28,194 bases of DNA from Anaerolineales bacterium UBA5069. Lineage in GTDB: Bacteria; Chloroflexota; Anaerolineae; Caldilineales; Caldilineaceae. The stretch is taken from contig DIAV01000102.1 in assembly GCA_002415895.1 (NCBI GenBank), forward strand, positions 1-28,194, in the 5' to 3' direction. The first letter of the stretch is position 1. The number at the start of each line of letters is the position of its first letter. The notes under the pieces were generated by a model. It was not told the origin of the DNA and did no database searches. It saw only the letters and a list, made by a program, of their open reading frames with translations. Below are positions 7,069 to 26,879 of the stretch, in pieces. A program made the position numbers and the translations under genes.

Positions 7069-7998
7069 TCAGTAGAGATCGTCGGTCAGCCCAGGTTCCA
7101 GCTCGTCGAGAACATAGTGACGCGCAGTCGTCTCGAGGCGTTTATGACCAAGCGCCTTCTGTGCCTGACGAATGTCTTTGCGCGCGAGTTGTGTGCCGAC
7201 AAAGCGACGAAAGTCGTGTGGCTTGACATGATCGAGGCCAAGGCTGCCGGCATACTTGCGTACAATTTGCCAAATTGCCGTTGTTGAGAGAGGGCGGGCG
7301 GTGATGCGCTCGCCGCGGCCGTCAAACGCGGTGAAAACATGCTCGCAGGTGACACCCTCGTCTGTGCGTACGGCAAGCCATGCGTTAATTCTGGCGACAG
7401 CTTCACGGCTCAGGGGTGCTTCGCGCGCTTCAATATCATTCTTGCCCAGCACCATGACAACGTAGCTACTCCCTTTACGGCGGATATCACACGTCTTCAT
7501 GCCCACAAGCTCACTCACGCGCAGGGCGCCGCTGGCCAATGCAGCCAGCAGAGCAGCGTCCCGCATGCCAATCGGTCGCTCCTCATTCGGCAATTCGCAT
7601 AGTGTTCGCATGTCGACGGGTTCGATGCGCACACGTGCGTTGGTCTTCACGCGGTCCTTTAGGGCGGCTTGCTTAACGCCTGCGACAAGGCGAAAGGAGG
7701 CTGCGGTCTCCGTGCTCACGTAGCCTTGCGCGGCTGCCTCTGTCATAATGCGCTTGACGGCACTGAGCATGCGGTTGATGGTGTTGGGGCTCAGCGCCGT
7801 CTCCTGTGCGCACCATGTGCGAAAGCGCGCCAGTGTCTCGGCCTTCAGCGCCGCCTCTGTCGTGCCGGCAAACTGCAAGTAGGCGCGCATGTCGCGTTCA
7901 TACATGCGTATGCTGGAGGGAGCCAATTGGCCGGCGAGCATATCCACCCGGAAGGGCAGGGCAGGGGGGGCAATGTGCGTGGGTCGGATCGCGTGCAT
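7069..7998 (-). CDS. Tyrosine recombinase (site-specific integrase)
   Basis: A 309-residue lambda-integrase/XerCD family protein. The N-terminal SAM-like core-binding domain (about 18-95, with [20 protein letters not shown]) is followed by the catalytic domain. All six catalytic positions are visible: Arg160 (GALRVSEL), Lys186 (VLGKND), His261 and Arg264 (KPHDFRRF), His285 (LGHKR) and nucleophile Tyr295 (TARHYV). The protein should cut and rejoin DNA through a 3'-phosphotyrosine link. It is not obviously XerC or XerD, and it sits next to an HNH nuclease gene, so a mobile-element or cassette role is more likely than chromosome-dimer resolution (inference). A clear promoter lies at 8038-8066. 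The ribosome site is modest (AAGGCGAG). Confidence 0.9.
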
Positions 7999-16652: not shown

Positions 16653-19592
16653 CTAATTCTGCCACTCGCGGCCGGTGGGGCTCAGCCAAAGCGCCGCCTC
16701 TACAGCGTCGGCACGCAAATACACACCGCGCTCAAAGTCCTGTATCAGTGCGTTGAGGCCCGACTCTTTGCCCACGGCCCAGCCCAGTCGCGCCTGCACG
16801 CCGGCGTCATTGCGCCACACCTTGCCGAAACCCCGCACAGGCTGCATAAGGCCGCCGGGGGCCTTGAGCGTCGCATCACTCTCCGCTTCGCCCTCCTTGA
16901 ACGTGTCGTCAAATAGATCCCAGCCGCCGTCGTCATAGATGGCGTAGATCTGCTGCGTGTCGCCGCGCCAAACCATCGTGCCATGCTCGAAATACTGGTA
17001 GGCGGCGGGCACAGCGTTCGGCTGCGCGCTGCGTGCAAAGCCCAGCGCCTGCTGTAGCGCACCGTCGGCCTCCCATGCCGGGCCAAAGAAACCCGTGGGG
17101 CGGAAAAAGCCCGCGGGTGGCTCGACAGGCAAGGGCGCAACCGTTGCCTGTGGTGCGGCCGGCGCTGTAGATGGCGTGGCAGGTTGCTCTTCACGATCCG
17201 GCGCGGCTTGCGCAGTTGTCGCGTCGGCCAGGGGTATTGCTGTAGCGGCGCTATTCACGTCGCTTGCGCCTGCCGGTGCGGCTGGACGCATCTCCTCCCA
17301 CACAACGGTGTTCGGGTCCAACTGCATGAACTCCCCTTCAGCCGTAGCCAGCAACAGACGATAGGAGCCATCGCTCAGCAATGGCGTGATGGCAGCCGCC
17401 ATCAGCACCGCCCCCCCTGTTTCACTCTCTGCCAGGCGCGTCCACGTCTTGCCATCGTCGCGTGTGCGATAGACGCCGGCATCGGTTGCGACGATGATTG
17501 CAGGCGTTTCTGCATCCAGCGGCGCGCGCAGAATGGCGCGCAGGATTTCGTCGGCGCCGAGGTCGCCCAGTGCAGTGGTGGCAGTCGTCCAGTTACTGTT
17601 GTCTATGCGAAATTGAATCGGCTCTAGCCACGAGCGTTTGCGCACAGGCAGTTCCTTGCCCGGCGGCGGCGGCAGGTAGACCGACGCCGCGGGCAAGGTC
17701 TCCTGCACCGCAGACGTCATGACAATTGTCCAAGTGAGGCCGCTGTCGGTTGAACGTTGCATGGAGTAGCCCGTCTCCATGGGTGTGATCTGCGCATAGG
17801 GGGCCCACGCCAGCAGCGTTTGGTCATCGCCATAGCGGGGTGAAATTGCAATGCGATCCACACGCAGATGCTCGAGGCCATTCCACACCGGCGCCCAGGT
17901 GTCGCCCCCGTCGGTGGATTTCCAAACGCCTTCGCCCATGGACTCGCGCCGTAACCCGCCGGCAAAAAGCGTTCGATCCTGTGCGAAATTGGGTGAGACT
18001 GCCAACGTCAACGCCAGGTCCTCCCCGCTGGGCAACCCGCCCAGGCGCGTAAATGTTTGCCCACCGTCGGTGGAGCGCAGGATCACCTGTCCCCCGTTTT
18101 CATCAAGTGCCCATGCCACAAGGAAAAGCGTGCCATCTTTGGCAAAGTTGGGCGAAGGCGCAATGGCAGTCACCTGCTTGCCCGCAACCGTGTCATGCTG
18201 CGCTGCGGGCAGTTTCGACTCGCCGCCTGTCGGCTCCAGCACCACCAGGTCGTGGCGCTGTGCGTCGGTCGCATAGAGCAGGCCACCCGCCCCATCCTGT
18301 GCGAAAAAGCAGAGGGAGTCGATCATGCCGACGGGCGCGAGTGTGTTGATGTCCAGCACATAGCCGCTGGTGGATCCCGGCTGCAGATACGCGACGCCTG
18401 CCGAAGGGTTCACAAAGGAAGCCCAGAGGCCATCGCGCATGGGCGACTTGTCACCCTCTTCGTCTTGAAGGTAGAGATTGTTGTAGGTCACATAGCGCGA
18501 GAAACGCTCTGTGCGCAGTGTACGGCCGTTGACTGGCGCAATGAGTTGGGGCTGGCTGCTGCATGTGGCGTACAGGGTGTAGCCACCGTCAAAGCGGGCC
18601 ATTGTATCGGCGTTGTATAGATCGGCGGGCGTCAGCGCGCCCGCCCCCTGGGGCGACAAGATAACCGTTTGAATGGCGACAGTCTCCATATCGGCAAAGT
18701 AAAACGCGTCGACAGCAGCCGGGCAGCCTGTGCAGCCGGGCAAGTCAATGCCCGTGATTTGGGGGTAGAGATCCGTGAATGGCTCCAGCGTCTCGGCGTC
18801 GGCGGTCCATGCGCTGCTGTGCTGAATGATCAGGCCGTCCGCGTCGGGGACATAGAGGGGATTCCCTGCCATTGGTCCGGTGCGTTGCAGATCAAGCGTT
18901 GCCGCGTCATAGAGCCGCACCCCCGTCGCCTCGCGGCCGGAGACGTTTACGACGTCACCCACATACAGACGGGCGAAGCCATCCACGCTGGCGCGGCTGC
19001 CGGGCAACGCGCCAACAATCGTGCGGCTGCTCGTGTCGAACACAGTGACTGTGGGCGAAATGCCCTCACGCGCCCAGGGCGCATCCGGCATAATGTAGAG
19101 GCGATTGCCGGAGGCGTCGAGCAGAAGCCTGTCGCCGCTGGTGGGCACAGAATCAACCACTTGCCCTGAAGTCAGGTCAACGACGTGCAGGTTGTACTCG
19201 CTGTCTGTGAGGTATGCAATCTGCGCGGCGCTGTCGAGCCGGAAGTCAGCAAGGCGCACACCGTCAGCAACCAGCGCAATGCGCGCGACTTCACGCGGGA
19301 TTGGGTTTATTGCGCTGCCGGGCGCTGGGGTCTCGACAGGCGCGCGCGGCGCGACGCCCGCGAATGCAGGAGTGGCTTGGGTCGCTAACGGCGCCGCTGT
19401 GGGCAGCGCGGGTGCGGGCGTCTTTGGCGTGGCCGCCGCCTGTGCTGTCTCCAATTCCGCATTGCGCACAGCTAGCGCGTCGACGGTGGCCTGCAGCGCC
19501 TGCTCACGCGTGCTGGGCGCACACGCGCCGGCAAGTGCAATCATCAACAGAAGTGCAGCGTTTCCAAGCGTACGTCGAATCGGCTGAAGCAT
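16653..19592 (-). CDS. Large lipoprotein with beta-propeller/Asp-box repeats
   Basis: The 979-residue product starts with a lipoprotein signal whose lipobox LAGAC places the modified Cys at 24, so it should be tethered to the outer face of the membrane. A short heptad-like helix (about 31-53) and a Pro/Ala/Thr-rich linker follow. Then comes a YncE-like propeller region (HVVDLTSGQVVDSV, TVFDTSSRTIVGAL). Four Asp-box repeats of the sialidase/sortilin/Ycf48 type follow: STDGGQTF (507-514), STDGGDTW (559-566), STDSGLTW (614-621) and TRDDGKTW (710-717). After a second Pro/Ala linker, two related units end the protein (ALGFARS...YFEHGTMVWRGD and RLGWAVG...DFERGVYLRAD). The start at 19592 has AAGGAG 6 nt upstream. 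An envelope sensing or binding role is possible; the ligand is unknown. Confidence 0.85.
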   Translation of the reverse strand: MLQPIRRTLGNAALLLMIALAGACAPSTREQALQATVDALAVRNAELETAQAAATPKTPAPALPTAAPLATQATPAFAGVAPRAPVETPAPGSAINPIPREVARIALVADGVRLADFRLDSAAQIAYLTDSEYNLHVVDLTSGQVVDSVPTSGDRLLLDASGNRLYIMPDAPWAREGISPTVTVFDTSSRTIVGALPGSRASVDGFARLYVGDVVNVSGREATGVRLYDAATLDLQRTGPMAGNPLYVPDADGLIIQHSSAWTADAETLEPFTDLYPQITGIDLPGCTGCPAAVDAFYFADMETVAIQTVILSPQGAGALTPADLYNADTMARFDGGYTLYATCSSQPQLIAPVNGRTLRTERFSRYVTYNNLYLQDEEGDKSPMRDGLWASFVNPSAGVAYLQPGSTSGYVLDINTLAPVGMIDSLCFFAQDGAGGLLYATDAQRHDLVVLEPTGGESKLPAAQHDTVAGKQVTAIAPSPNFAKDGTLFLVAWALDENGGQVILRSTDGGQTFTRLGGLPSGEDLALTLAVSPNFAQDRTLFAGGLRRESMGEGVWKSTDGGDTWAPVWNGLEHLRVDRIAISPRYGDDQTLLAWAPYAQITPMETGYSMQRSTDSGLTWTIVMTSAVQETLPAASVYLPPPPGKELPVRKRSWLEPIQFRIDNSNWTTATTALGDLGADEILRAILRAPLDAETPAIIVATDAGVYRTRDDGKTWTRLAESETGGAVLMAAAITPLLSDGSYRLLLATAEGEFMQLDPNTVVWEEMRPAAPAGASDVNSAATAIPLADATTAQAAPDREEQPATPSTAPAAPQATVAPLPVEPPAGFFRPTGFFGPAWEADGALQQALGFARSAQPNAVPAAYQYFEHGTMVWRGDTQQIYAIYDDGGWDLFDDTFKEGEAESDATLKAPGGLMQPVRGFGKVWRNDAGVQARLGWAVGKESGLNALIQDFERGVYLRADAVEAALWLSPTGREWQN

Positions 19593-19730
19593 GCGGGTCT
19601 CCTTCCCTTGCATCCCGTGCCACATGGCCCTACGGCATGTCATGCCAGCGGCCGCTTGCTGCGGCACTCTGGTTGGCGCAAGGCTGTGGTATCATTTTTG
19701 CATTACAGATGCAGAAGCTGTCAATGGGAC

Positions 19731-21127: not shown

Positions 21128-22069
21128 TCAACGACTGCGCAGCCAAATCGCAGGCAGCATGGCCACTTTGCGCGCCGTGCCCACATAGGCGCGTCGCGAG
21201 AGATTGTCGTAGTTGCGCCGCTCAATGTCCTTGAGAATGCCACGATAGAGTTCGGCCGCGGCAGCGGTGGCAAAGCGCCCATCCGCGTTGAGCAACGCCA
21301 CGCCCGCATGCGCTTCATCGTATAAGCGGCGGTTGCGGTCTATTTGGAAGCGCATGAACTCGCGCCAGCGCGCCGTCACCACACCCTCACCAATCTCTTC
21401 CTCAAAGATGCCAAAGGCCGTCAGTTCCTCCTGGGGGAGATAGACGCGCCCGCGCCGCCAATCGTCGGCCACATCGCGCAGGATGTTGGTTATCTGCAGC
21501 GCAACGCCCAACTTGATTGCATAGGGCATCGCCTCCAACCCCTGATAGCCAATGATGTGCATGCTCATTAACCCTACGGTTGAGGCCACGCCGTAGCTGT
21601 AGGCCGCCAGATCGTCAAACGTAACGTAGCGCTTCTGCACAGTATCGCGTGCGACGCCATCAATCAGTTGCTCGGCATAACGGCTGGGCACGTTGTAGCG
21701 ACTGCGTGCATCGGCCCAGGCCACCGCCACCAAGTCATCCGCAGGCGGATTCTGCAGCTGGATGCGCGCGCGCCATGCATTGAGAGCCGCCAGGCCGTCG
21801 GCCTCATTGGCAGCATTGTCCACGGTGTCATCAGTCACGCGGCAGAAGGCATAGAGCGCGCGCACCGCCGCGCGCTTTGGCTTCGGCAACAGGCCCGAGG
21901 CCATATGGAAAGAGCGGCTATTGGTGGCAGTCAGGTCGTCACAAAGGGCATAGGCATCGCGCAGTGTACGTGCGTCAATGCCAGGCTCGGCAGCGCGCGT
22001 GTGGTTGTGGTGCGCTTCCTGCGCCAGGGAAAGCAGAGTTGACTCCCAGGGAAAAACTTCTGCTGTCAT
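21128..22069 (-). CDS. crtB: Phytoene synthase / squalene-phytoene synthase family
   Basis: The 313-residue trans-isoprenyl synthase condenses two geranylgeranyl diphosphates into phytoene, the first committed step of C40 carotenoid synthesis. Both Mg-diphosphate motifs are present: DDTVD (80-84) and [14 protein letters not shown] with Asp199 and Asp203. [12 protein letters not shown] and YAYCRVTDD-like text ([11 protein letters not shown]) precede the first, and QITNILRD leads into the second. A CrtI-like desaturase gene nearby favours phytoene over squalene. The start is the ATG at 22069, with CGGAGC 7 nt upstream; longer starts at 22120 and 22180 are less supported, and the latter overlaps the promoter. 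It is divergent from the B12-binding MerR regulator gene, whose product is the obvious candidate controller. Confidence 0.92.
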
Positions 22070-22156
22070 GGCCGATGCTCCGTTGGTAGATGATTCGCAC
22101 TCTGCGTCGCCGACAAGCATATCCACTCGATTCGTTGCTTGTTCATTGCTGCGACA

Positions 22157-22185
22157 AACATAGCACAGACATTTGTGCATGTCAA
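22157..22185 (-). promoter_or_regulatory. Sigma70-type promoter of crtB
   Basis: On the minus strand a perfect TTGACA (22185-22180) and TATGTT (22162-22157) are 17 bp apart. Transcription would start near 22150 and leave a leader of about 80 nt before the ATG at 22069. The longer ORF start at 22180 would lie upstream of this start site, which supports the 22069 ATG. Confidence 0.75.
22163..22178. promoter_or_regulatory. Candidate operator: inverted repeat inside the crtB promoter spacer
   Basis: GCACA (22163-22167) and TGTGC (22174-22178) form a 5-bp dyad with a 6-bp centre, lying wholly between the -10 and -35 boxes of the crtB promoter. Regulators of the MerR family classically bind dyads in this position. 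Binding here by the neighbouring CarH-like regulator would block RNA polymerase in the dark (inference). Confidence 0.5.
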
Positions 22186-22200
22186 GGTATGAATTCTACC

Positions 22201-22246
22201 TTTGTCCATATATTGATCAATACCCGCTGACAAAAGTATGGACAAA
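22201..22246. repeat. 10-bp inverted repeat in the crtB/carH intergenic region
   Basis: TTTGTCCATA (22201-22210) and TATGGACAAA (22237-22246) are exact reverse complements 26 bp apart. A similar half-site, TTTGTGCAT, is at 22172-22180. The right arm lies in the spacer of the likely regulator promoter. This is consistent with a multi-site operator for a tetrameric regulator. Confidence 0.55.
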
Positions 22247-22255: not shown

Positions 22256-22402
22256 TTTCGCGGCAGTTGTGGTACACTTTGTTCAGGTATTGAACATTAT
22301 GCCACCCATGATAGAGCGCAATCAAGCATGGTCACTCCCAATGTGGCTTCGACCCGCGATCGCATCGCCAATATTGCCCATCACCGCCTGACTGGAGAAC
22401 CG

Positions 22403-23788
22403 ATGGCGAATCACCAGGATATGCCGCTCTTTAACCTTAAGGCTGTTGTAACGGAAACCGGACTCAAACCCGACACGTTGCGCGCCTGGGAGCGCCGCTA
22501 CGGCTTGCCCACACCCACCCGCACCCCCAGCGGCCATCGCCTCTACTCGCAGAACGACATTGATCTCCTGCACTGGCTGCTGGCGCGCCAATCCGAAGGA
22601 TTAAGCATAAGCCGCGCCGTGGAAATGCGCCAGCGGATGATGCGTGAAGGCAACGAAAATGGCCGGAACGCTGGCGCTGCAACGGGCCAGGCGCTGCCGT
22701 CTACGGCGGCGGCGGCCATGCCACATATGGGAAACGGATTTCCGCCGCAAGCCGTTTCACCCGAAAATGACGACATTTTGCAGGCCTTACGTGGCCGCTG
22801 GGTGGATGCCTGCCTGCGCTACGATGAACAGGATGCCGAACATACCCTCTCCGAAGCCTTTGCCCTCTTCACCCCCGAGATGGTCTGCCTGCAGATCATT
22901 CAGAGGGGGTTGGCCACAATTGGTGAGGGGTGGTACAGGGGGCGCGTCACGGTGCAGCAGGAGCATTTCGCCTCTTCCCTTGCACTGCGCAGGCTGGAGG
23001 CGATCCTCAATGCCACGCCGCCACCCACCCGGGCCGGCCGCATTCTGATCGCTTGCCCTCCCGGCGAAGAACATACATTTGTGCCGCTCCTGCTCGCGCT
23101 GCTGCTGCGCCGGCGCGGCTGGGATACTGTCTACCTGGGTGCAAATGTGCCTCTGCAATACATGGAAACCACAATTGGCGCCACGCGCCCGCAACTGGTC
23201 GTTCTCACGGCGCAGCAGTTGTCAACCGCAGCAACCATTGTTGACATGGGCAACGTCCTGCTGCGCGAGCGCATCCCACTCGCTTATGGTGGCGTTGTTT
23301 TCAGCCGCCTGCCCCAGTTGCATGCTCTCGTCCCCGGCCACTATCTGGGCGATCGGCTTGAGAATGCCACAGCGCTGATTGAAGGGCTGATGCCCACGCC
23401 ACGTGCTGTCGCCGCGCAACAAGTGCCAACGCAGGCATATCGCGACGCGCTGGCCCATTATGTGGAGCGACAACCGCGGGTGGAGGCGGCAGTCTGGGAC
23501 GCCATGCGCGCCAGTGCGATCCCAACGCGCATGGTGACCACCGCAAATCATCATTTTGGGCGCATGATAGAGGCCGCGCTCAGCCTTGGCAACATAGACC
23601 TCATTGCCGGCGACATGGAATGGCTGGATGGTTTGCTCGTGAACCACGCAGGCATGCCACGCGAGCGAACACTGGAGTACCTTGCAGCCTATTTGCAGGC
23701 GGCGCGCACACAACTGGGGGCGCCGGGGGCGCCGCTCATTGAGTGGCTGGCCACGCTGGCAGAAGACGATGGCAGCACGCAGCATTAA
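22403..23788 (+). CDS. CarH/LitR-like B12-dependent MerR-family photoreceptor regulator with C-terminal extension
   Basis: This 461-residue protein starts with a MerR helix-turn-helix (about 8-76: NLKAVVTETGLKPDTLRAWERRYG, SGHRLYSQNDI). After a loose linker comes the helical cobalamin cap (about 123-207) holding the CarH signature W-x9-EH (Trp177, Glu187, His188). A Rossmann B12 domain (about 212-330) follows with CPPGEEHTFV, where His224 is the likely cobalt ligand. The usual ExHxxG motif has Val227 instead of Gly. CarH proteins bind adenosylcobalamin, repress carotenoid genes in the dark and release DNA in light. Residues 331-461 form an extra, apparently helical module not present in classical CarH of about 300 residues. 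The ATG at 22403 has GGAG 5 nt upstream. Its divergent partner is crtB. Confidence 0.87.
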   Translation: MANHQDMPLFNLKAVVTETGLKPDTLRAWERRYGLPTPTRTPSGHRLYSQNDIDLLHWLLARQSEGLSISRAVEMRQRMMREGNENGRNAGAATGQALPSTAAAAMPHMGNGFPPQAVSPENDDILQALRGRWVDACLRYDEQDAEHTLSEAFALFTPEMVCLQIIQRGLATIGEGWYRGRVTVQQEHFASSLALRRLEAILNATPPPTRAGRILIACPPGEEHTFVPLLLALLLRRRGWDTVYLGANVPLQYMETTIGATRPQLVVLTAQQLSTAATIVDMGNVLLRERIPLAYGGVVFSRLPQLHALVPGHYLGDRLENATALIEGLMPTPRAVAAQQVPTQAYRDALAHYVERQPRVEAAVWDAMRASAIPTRMVTTANHHFGRMIEAALSLGNIDLIAGDMEWLDGLLVNHAGMPRERTLEYLAAYLQAARTQLGAPGAPLIEWLATLAEDDGSTQH

Positions 23789-23905: not shown

Positions 23906-24835
23906 ATGCGCATCATCATTACAGGCGGTACAGGGCTCATCGGCGAGGCGCTGACCCGCTCGCTGCTGTCAGACGGTCACGCGGTGCAAGTGCTCACGCG
24001 CAATCCCTCGCGCACAAAAGCTTCGGCAGAGGGTCTCCAATATGTGCAGTGGGATGGCAGGACGGCGCAGGGCTGGGGCGACCTGGCGAGCGGCGCCGAT
24101 GCGATCGTAAACCTCGCCGGTGAAGGCATTGCCGACGGCCGCTGGAGCAAAGAGCGCCGCAACCGCATTTTACAGAGCCGCCTGGATGCGGGGGCGGCCG
24201 TAATGGCAGCAATCAGCGCCGCGCCTGTCAAGCCGCGTGCCCTCGTGCAGGCGTCCGCGGTCGGCTACTACGGCCCGCGCGCCAATGAGATGATTAACGA
24301 ATCCGCTTCGCCGGGCAGCGACTGGCTGTCACACGTGGTGTGGGAGTGGGAGAACGCCACAGCCAGCGCAGCGCGCCTGGGCGTGCGCCGCACCGTGGCG
24401 CGCACGGGTGTCGTCTTCAGCCTCAAAGGCGGCGCGTTTCCCAAAATGAAGCTTCCCTTTGACATGATCTTCGCCGGCGGTCCCCTGGGCAGCGGCGATC
24501 AGTACATCCCCTGGATTCACATTGAGGACGAGGTGCGCGCCCTGCGCTTCCTGATCGAAAACGCGGCCACCGAGGGTGTATACAATCTCTCCGCACCTAC
24601 GCCCGTTACCTATGATCAATTCGCCGCAACCATGGGCGAGGTGATGGGGCGCACGTCCTTCATGCCTGCGCCCGCGTTCGCGCTCAAGGCCGTGCTGGGC
24701 GACATGGCCTCCATTCTGCTCACCGGCCAGCGCGTCGTGCCTGCACGCCTGCTAGAAGCGGGCTTCAAATTCCAATATCCCGAACTTGCGCCGGCGCTGC
24801 GCAGTGTGCTCAACAAACAGGCCGCACCCGCATAG
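23906..24835 (+). CDS. TIGR01777-family NAD(P)-dependent epimerase/reductase-like protein
   Basis: A 309-residue extended SDR of the TIGR01777 (SDR39U1/YfcH) type. It opens with the cofactor loop ITGGTGLIG (5-13). VNLAGEGIADGRWSKERRNRI and SRLDAG, QASAVGYYG, WEWENATASA, TGVVFSLKGGAFPKMKLPF and WIHIEDEVRAL follow in the order normal for the family. The C-terminal region (from about 230) is the usual substrate domain. The biochemical reaction of the family is unclear. AGGAG lies just upstream of the ATG at 23906. Homologues are often found near B12-dependent light regulators, which fits its position here, but this is context rather than proof. Confidence 0.88.
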   Translation: MRIIITGGTGLIGEALTRSLLSDGHAVQVLTRNPSRTKASAEGLQYVQWDGRTAQGWGDLASGADAIVNLAGEGIADGRWSKERRNRILQSRLDAGAAVMAAISAAPVKPRALVQASAVGYYGPRANEMINESASPGSDWLSHVVWEWENATASAARLGVRRTVARTGVVFSLKGGAFPKMKLPFDMIFAGGPLGSGDQYIPWIHIEDEVRALRFLIENAATEGVYNLSAPTPVTYDQFAATMGEVMGRTSFMPAPAFALKAVLGDMASILLTGQRVVPARLLEAGFKFQYPELAPALRSVLNKQAAPA

Positions 24836-24886: not shown

Positions 24887-25360
24887 ATGCACTACTATCA
24901 CCGCTTTGTCGTCAACGCACCGCTTGAAGCCGTGCGCGAGTTTCACAGCCGTTCCGCGAGCATGGGCGCCATTACGCCGCCGCCCATCATTGTGCAGGTG
25001 CATGAGGCGCCTGCCGTGTTGAGCGAGGGCAGCGCCATGCGCTTCACCCTGTGGATGGGGCCGCTGCCTCTGCGCTGGCACGCGCGCATGAGCGATGTGG
25101 GACAAGGCGGCTTCGTCGACACCATGGAACGTGGCCCCTTCAAGATCTGGCGCCACGAGCATCGCTTTGTCGCCATCGATGCGCAGCGCACGGAAGTGCT
25201 TGATAGCCTGCACATTGAGCCGAGCGCTAACTGGTTCTGGTGGACAGTCGGCAAGAGCATGATTCTGGGCCTGCCGCTGCTCTTTGGCTGGCGCGCACTG
25301 CGCACGCGCCAAATTCTCGAGCGCGCGGCTGCCGGGCAACCTGCGCCGGTCACAAAGTAA
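24887..25360 (+). CDS. SRPBCC (START/Bet v 1-like) family protein
   Basis: The 157-residue protein has the SRPBCC pattern: an opening strand [19 protein letters not shown] with a first helix, a run of beta strands ([49 protein letters not shown]), LDSLHIE, and a closing amphipathic helix ([25 protein letters not shown], about 119-143). Such proteins enclose a hydrophobic ligand such as a lipid, quinone or polyketide. The partner or ligand is unknown. It is 51 nt after the epimerase gene and one base before the desaturase gene, so a role in handling a carotenoid or related lipid is plausible (inference). Confidence 0.82.
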
Positions 25361-25361
25361 C

Positions 25362-26879
25362 GTGGCGACCACATTTCAGACGCGCAACCGCGCTGCGCCG
25401 CGCATTGTGGTGATCGGCGCGGGCGTGGGCGGCCTCACGACGGCCGCCATGCTAGCGCGCGCCGGGTACAATGTGACGGTGCTCGAGGCGCATGTCTATC
25501 CCGGAGGCTGTGCGGGCACCTTCTTCCATCAGGGCTACCGCTTTGATGCCGGCGCTACGCTGGCCGGTGGCTTCTACCCGGGCGGCCCCATGGACATTGT
25601 CGCCGCACAAGCGGGCATTGCGCAATGGCCTGCGCACGCGGCCGACACGGCCATGGATGTGTTCTTGCCGGGCGGCGTGCACGTCACAAGGTATGGTGAC
25701 GAACGTCGTTTTGCTGAGCACGTACGCGCCTTCGGTCCGGCCGCCGACCCCTTCTTTGCCTGGCAGGAACGCACTGCGGACGCGCTCTGGGATCTGGCGC
25801 TGCGGCTGCCCCCCTGGCCGCCCCAGCGCGCACAGGAAATCGCGCGCGTGGGCGGGATTGGCCTGCAATGGCTGACGCAGAACCTCCGCCACCTCGATCC
25901 CCGCCTTGCCGCCGACGCGCTGCGCCCTGTGGCTGCGCATCTGTATGCTGCGCCCGCCGCACTGCGCCATTTTGTAGATGGGCAGTTGTTGATTGCGGCG
26001 CAGGCAACCAGCAGCAGCGCCAATGCGCTCTATGGCGCGTCGGCGCTGGACCTGCCACGACGCGGCATTGTGCATCTTGACGGCGGCATGGGCGCGATTG
26101 CGCAAACGCTGGCCGCCGCAGTGCGCGCCAACGGGGGTGAGGTATGCTATCGCCACGAGGTTGCGCGCATTTGCTTCGAGAATGGCCGGCCCGCGGGCAT
26201 TGAAACGCGGCGCGGGGAGTCCATTCCTGCCGACATTGTGATTGCCAACCTGCCGCCGTGGAGCATTAAACCGTTGCTGTCCGACACTGCGCCTGCGGCG
26301 CTCTCACATCTTCCCGCCGCACCACGCGACGGCTGGGGGGCATTCATGCTCTACGCGGGCGTGGACGGCGCGATCGTCCCCGCTGACGCACCGCTGCATC
26401 ACCAGGTGATCGTGCGCGAGCCACTGGGCGAGGGCAACTCGGTCTTCGTCTCCATCAGCCCGGCATGGGACTCCACACGCGCGCCGGCGAGCAAGCGTGC
26501 CATCACCATCAGCACGCATACAGACCCACGCGCTTGGTATCGATTGCGCGCGGAAGACGAGAGCATGTATAACAAGCGTAAACAACTTTACGCCGATCGC
26601 CTGCTGGCCGCCGCCGAGCTTGCTCTGCCCGGACTGCGCGCCGCTGCAGACATCTTGCTGCCCGGCACGCCGCTGGCGTTTCAGCGCTTCGCGCGCAGGG
26701 TGGGTGGTTGGGTTGGTGGTTTTCCACAAACAAGCCTTGTGCGTGGCTGGCCGCCCCACCTCGCTCCCAGCTTGTGGATGGTGGGTGACAGCATCTTTCC
26801 CGGCCAATCCACGGCGGCGGTGGCCCTGGGCGGCCTGCGCGTGGCGCGCGCCGTCGTCGAAGCGCACCCACACCATTAA
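25362..26879 (+). CDS. FAD-dependent carotenoid desaturase-like protein (CrtI/CrtD family)
   Basis: This 505-residue flavoprotein of the phytoene desaturase superfamily has [20 protein letters not shown] (FAD loop 19-24) and [15 protein letters not shown] with Glu42 binding the ribose. The following [16 protein letters not shown] resembles the cyanobacterial CrtD/C-3',4'-desaturase branch more than classical CrtI. The C-terminal flavin motif [21 protein letters not shown] (from about 475) is intact. It probably desaturates or isomerises a carotenoid or similar polyene, but the exact substrate is not settled. The start is GTG at 25362, one base after the TAA of the SRPBCC gene, which implies coupled translation; an in-frame upstream frame to 25284 overlaps that gene. 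With crtB nearby it suggests at least a partial carotenoid pathway. Confidence 0.85.

Follow-up and report, generated by a model that had tools for sequence, protein, structure and literature searches.

The closest described systems to the gene analyzed here are the CarH/LitR regulators, represented by Thermus thermophilus CarH (TtCarH; PDB 5C8D and 3WHP), in which a MerR-type DNA-binding domain is joined to a B12 light-sensor domain and carotenoid genes lie alongside, and the photocobilins SasPcob (8J2W/8J2X) and AbPcob (8J2Y), in which a B12-binding cap and a Rossmann domain are followed by a five-helix globin (PMC10979010). The photocobilins characterized there are stand-alone or enzyme-linked, and roles of photocobilins with transcription factors had been proposed (PMC10979010). 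Our analysis of a 28,194-nucleotide stretch of Anaerolineales bacterium UBA5069 (contig DIAV01000102.1; the window) identified a gene (22403..23788, forward strand) encoding a 461 amino acid regulator in which a photocobilin core is joined to a DNA-binding domain, with plausible target genes next to it. No description of this MerR-B12-photoglobin combination was found in the accessible parts of the photocobilin, photoglobin, and CarH literature searched, a body of work that does not include the Schneider 2022 photoglobin survey. On balance, we are inclined to read the protein as a light-responsive repressor of carotenoid genes, combining MerR, CarH-type adenosylcobalamin (AdoCbl), and photoglobin domains, with the globin serving as a lid.

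The computed domain make-up, all on the forward strand, begins with a MerR-type DNA-binding domain (residues 11-77; 22433..22633; Pfam MerR_1, E = 4.3e-12), followed by a B12-binding_2 four-helix cap (residues 132-200; 22796..23002; Pfam E = 5.9e-11) with the motifs GEGW (174-177) and EH (187-188), and a B12-binding Rossmann domain (residues 212-306; 23036..23320; Pfam E = 1.4e-9) with GEEH (221-224) and GANVP (246-250). Pfam holds no domain model for the C-terminal extension, and the residues after 306 gave zero Pfam matches (E up to 0.001); a five-helix photoglobin (bilin-globin fold) domain was assigned there (23432..23779) from an AlphaFold2 (AF2) model, fold matches, and a profile match. 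An earlier, sequence-only reading had taken this extension to be helix-rich and without counterpart in classical CarH. The first point was borne out, as AF2 predicts five helices (residues 344-368, 375-395, 400-415, 420-438, and 440-459), with a mean predicted local distance difference test score of 91, and of 88 for residues 334-461 modelled alone. The second stands for Thermus CarH, whose best sequence match stops at query residue 270, CarH structural matches stopping by residue 334, but a counterpart is known elsewhere, in the photoglobin of photocobilins, and is common to close relatives.

Fold comparison matched the extension to this five-helix photoglobin domain, also when the extension was used alone, and a profile comparison of the extension alone (the regulator's own extension aligned with those of 74/80 related loci) also matched the photocobilin globin. 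In the predicted model the globin is placed on the B12 domain as in photocobilins, from which the regulator differs by its added MerR domain. The globin fold is also that of phycobiliproteins and bilin biosynthesis-associated globins (PMC10151467), although here it is fused to B12 and DNA-binding domains and lacks a CXRD or CXQD motif at the site.

The B12 portion agrees with the CarH-like photoreceptor of the sequence-only reading: Trp177, Glu187, and His188 form the expected W-x9-EH geometry, His224 lies 36 residues past His188, and the MerR_1, B12-binding_2, and B12-binding domains fit this arrangement. The regulator keeps all four motifs of the published signature of light-responsive B12 domains (GxxW, EH, GxxH, and GxxxP; PMC11796333), as the GEGW, EH, GEEH, and GANVP located above. 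Residues W177, E187, H188, E222, and H224 are each invariant in 94/94 close relatives, an alignment of the regulator and 93 of 120 listed homologues from which 27 were removed by hand, including P0002 and P0082, so that these counts omit the sole listed homologue possibly without the extension. That reading had also regarded Val227 as an altered cobalamin motif, which we do not uphold, since HxxG is not part of the published signature (GxxH instead; PMC11796333). Val is present in 72/94 close relatives, and in a diverse set (the regulator plus 80 more diverse proteins, n = 81) position 227 is S in 37, A in 19, G in only 13, P in 6, V in 3, T in 2, and N in 1; the equivalent residue is Pro in SasPcob and Ser in AbPcob.

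By sequence, the top PDB matches are CarH/LitR of Thermus (3whp and 5c8d, E = 3e-29), with photocobilins lower (8j2y, 5e-13). Against the NCBIfam CarH equivalog NF052513 the regulator scores 151.9 bits, short of the 400-bit cut-off. It further differs from TtCarH in that Tyr178 follows the cap Trp where TtCarH has His132 (numbering taken from PDB titles), and Tyr occupies this position in 87/94 close relatives and 65/81 of the diverse set. In the light state of TtCarH, His132 supplies the second ligand to cobalt. After light, CarH is bis-His ligated and SasPcob is water/hydroxide ligated (PMC10979010); with Tyr178 in place of the His, a light state resembling that of SasPcob is more likely for the regulator. 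At the DNA the protein is expected to work as CarH does, and in its B12 core as a photocobilin does, and it could represent a natural DNA-binding optogenetic module with a light state possibly unlike the bis-His state of CarH. The same genome encodes a second CarH-like protein (G000:C172:18588-19559; L002, L135), with 36% identity over query residues 3-335, which is without the globin extension and in which the cap Trp is followed by the His known from TtCarH; the genes near it include parA-, parB-, and rho-like ones, with no carotenoid gene among those scanned.

The gene neighbourhood of the regulator, like that of CarH/LitR, contains carotenoid genes. A phytoene synthase gene (crtB-like; 21128..22180, reverse strand; SQS_PSY E = 3.4e-74) is divergent from it and is the presumed target; its best NCBIfam match is a CrtB model (250.6 bits, under the 550-bit cut-off). 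Downstream on the forward strand lie a TIGR01777 (yfcH) oxidoreductase gene (23906..24835; 326.7 bits, over the cut-off of 207.35), a small conserved open reading frame (ORF) with no Pfam match (24887..25360; labelled SRPBCC by eye only), and a CrtD-like carotenoid desaturase gene (25284..26879; TIGR02733 CrtD, E = 8.6e-75, 252.3 bits, under the 549.7-bit cut-off), whose true start is probably further downstream since the ORF overlaps the preceding small one. This order is retained in three related loci (L003, L005, and L009), and of the 80 related loci, 21 have a divergent crtB, 36 have yfcH downstream of the regulator, and 19 have a CrtD-like gene, counts that contig ends make lower bounds.

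CarH operators are tandem 11-bp repeats of the form nnnnTnnACAn (PMC9304148), and the same TnnACA repeat spacing was found upstream of the regulator's relatives. Across 74 upstream regions (the window and 73/80 loci, six loci having too little upstream sequence and L051 being omitted), the 7-mers GACAAAA (in 47 sequences; 6.5 expected) and TGGACAA (in 34; 3.8 expected) ranked highest. The derived pattern gave 73 sites, spread over 49/74 regions, against an expectation of 8.06 (100 shuffles gave at most 16), an enrichment that is no independent test as the pattern was derived from the regions in which it was counted; 73 in-gene stretches held 3 sites. With about 100 anchors, a second TnnRCA stood exactly 11 bp off on the same strand in 27/99 (+11) and 21/99 (-11) cases (next offset, 5), pairs being counted from both ends and the related loci sharing ancestry, so that these are non-independent events. 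TTGACA is also a -35 hexamer, and promoters may account for part of the enrichment, but this does not account for the 11-bp peak.

In the window, the enriched pattern marks two operator-like sites, TGGACAAA at 22201..22208 (reverse strand, crtB side) and TGGACAAA at 22239..22246 (forward strand, regulator side), which form an inverted pair 38 bp apart, a spacing also present in L004, L056, and L060. The upstream site scan added a TTGACA (TnnACA) site at 22180..22185 (reverse strand), also a -35-like hexamer towards crtB; the TGGACA at 22203 is 23 bp away from it, and two sites are equally spaced in L003 and in L005. Deeper in the regulator leader, TTTGTTCA (22278-22285) and TGAACA (22291-22296) are possibly extra operator half-sites. 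These sites also bear on the start of the gene: the longer automatic ORF begins at an upstream ATG at 22238, and the start at 22403 is favoured because the homologue consensus (MxxSxxTPxYNLKAVV) begins there and because 22238 sits amid operator-like sites. Stop-free frame, Pfam, and homologue comparison all delimit the gene, and homologues of similar length indicate that the frame is real and no chance ORF: of 5535 homologues within an E-value limit of 0.001, 120 were listed, and 119 of these have at least 437 amino acids. One of the 119, P0002, is the regulator itself or near-identical, and P0082 is the sole shorter entry (344 amino acids, 73% coverage).

For this protein we infer AdoCbl binding, a light response, repression, and a lid function of the globin. 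In the dark, the regulator would repress the carotenoid genes in an AdoCbl-dependent manner; light would break the Co-C bond of AdoCbl and the oligomer would then loosen, allowing expression of crtB and of the crtD-like cluster downstream. In this reading a B12-based light sensor probably switches the carotenoid genes. The globin would sit against the B12 domain in the photocobilin manner; in the source lineage its main role would be to cover the corrin as a lid, modulating AdoCbl binding, photolysis, or assembly, rather than to act as a biliverdin antenna.

In SasPcob, Asp270 holds biliverdin and Trp296 makes contact with the D ring of the bilin as well as with the corrin (PMC10979010). The latter corresponds to Trp407 of the regulator (Trp in 94/94 close relatives and 78/81 of the diverse set), which shares with photocobilins this Trp at the corrin edge and the lack of a bilin-linking Cys at the globin site. 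The Asp270 contact is not kept: phmmer, MAFFT, and HHalign align its position with His384, each opening a 3-residue gap inside a helix, and a manual reading of the helix without a gap places it at Ala381; neither residue is acidic. The Arg eight residues past the photocobilin Trp is His415 in the regulator (His in 93/94 close relatives; Y 24, H 23, and R 6 in the diverse set, n = 81). Among MerR-less relatives, a simple pattern located the bilin site in 89/120, with Asp in 87/89, and Gln is present at this position in at least three others.

A supply of biliverdin was likewise not recognized. In the class of the source genome, 67/199 genomes match the regulator protein (E up to 1e-40), and in 42/199, by our own count over the listed places, the match extends to residue 442 or further (the aligned part beginning past the DNA-binding domain in three and crossing one stop in two). 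Cobalamin adenosyltransferase (PF01923) was found in 19/20 carriers searched, and carriers can probably make AdoCbl. Heme oxygenase (PF01126) was matched in 0/199 genomes of the class, and not in the source genome (84.5% complete), the model matching in 3/14 named control genomes, and the PHY domain was also found in 0/199. In these searches, no recognized biliverdin source was found in the regulator's own or related class genomes, which offers a way to tell the globin's B12 role apart from its bilin role. Whether a photocobilin-type globin that no longer uses biliverdin has been kept in this heme-oxygenase- and PHY-negative class, now as a B12 lid or as a pocket for another ligand, we judge to be evenly balanced.

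It is possible, though doubtful, that the protein is instead a dual-chromophore repressor whose globin takes up biliverdin or a different bilin, either scavenged or produced by an unrecognized enzyme, extending the response to red light. The shared fold and arrangement and the conserved Trp407 are in line with this, and AbPcob, with His at the Asp270 position, binds biliverdin weakly and keeps its red-light response (PMC10979010); the regulator may have His384 there, leaving room for bilin binding. Against it stand the 0/199 counts, the lost Asp270, the His415 replacement, and the distribution across the phylum, where heme oxygenase was found in 14/400 Chloroflexota genomes. In 12 of these 14 a match includes the MerR part; these matches end by residue 335, apart from two that reach 360 and 401 solely via stop codons, so that none reaches the globin in open frame. 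Two of the 14 also hold a B12 protein that is matched from past the MerR part into the globin. Two B12-globin proteins of heme-oxygenase-positive genomes, L128 and L129, are apparently MerR-less and have Gly, not Asp, aligned at the bilin position. In five positive Chloroflexota genomes, heme oxygenase and a B12 protein of ~700 amino acids are encoded on one contig, roughly 4-7 kb apart (L102 in G220:C247, with matching ones in G209, G253, G425, and G471); the one example scanned has DICT, GAF, and B12 domains.

Several observations weigh against a lid-bearing AdoCbl repressor. Conservation is the one argument for the lid, and a bilin could be an equally good reason to keep Trp407. The Asp270 register is unsettled between His384 and Ala381; position 384 is Asp/Glu in 17/81 of the diverse set (position 381 is acidic in 0/81), and some relatives may retain an acid at the bilin position. 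The absence of heme oxygenase is based on one Pfam model and, for the source, on the incomplete genome noted above. DUF2470, known from some heme-degrading proteins, occurs in 2/199 class genomes, which also favors the dual-chromophore alternative, although neither is among the 42 globin-reaching carriers. The Foldseek E-values are a near tie between the best photocobilin (2.1e-14) and the best full-length CarH (3.5e-14). Finally, the window's own upstream region contains no exact same-strand 11-bp TnnACA pair.

It appears improbable that the protein is a CarH-type repressor whose globin has no part related to a chromophore and serves oligomerization or partner binding, two roles that the sequence-only reading had also suggested for the extension. 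Such a role would suit a helix-rich extension outside Pfam, and the SasPcob globin contacts both B12 subdomains (PMC10979010); moreover, Tyr178 may prevent formation of the classical bis-His light state and the rearrangement that goes with it. The fold and placement are nevertheless those of a tetrapyrrole-binding globin. Least credible is a B12-independent regulator that retained the fold and lost its light sense, for which the CarH paralogue CarA offers a precedent (PMC9304148), given the five invariant B12-site residues and the adenosyltransferase of nearly all carriers searched.

Elsewhere in the window, the reverse strand encodes a 1004 amino acid protein (16653-19667) with a sub-threshold Sortilin/VPS10 match only, for which L022 has a relative upstream of the same cluster, and a recombinase of the phage integrase family (7069-7998) that adjoins a TrkH-type transporter gene.
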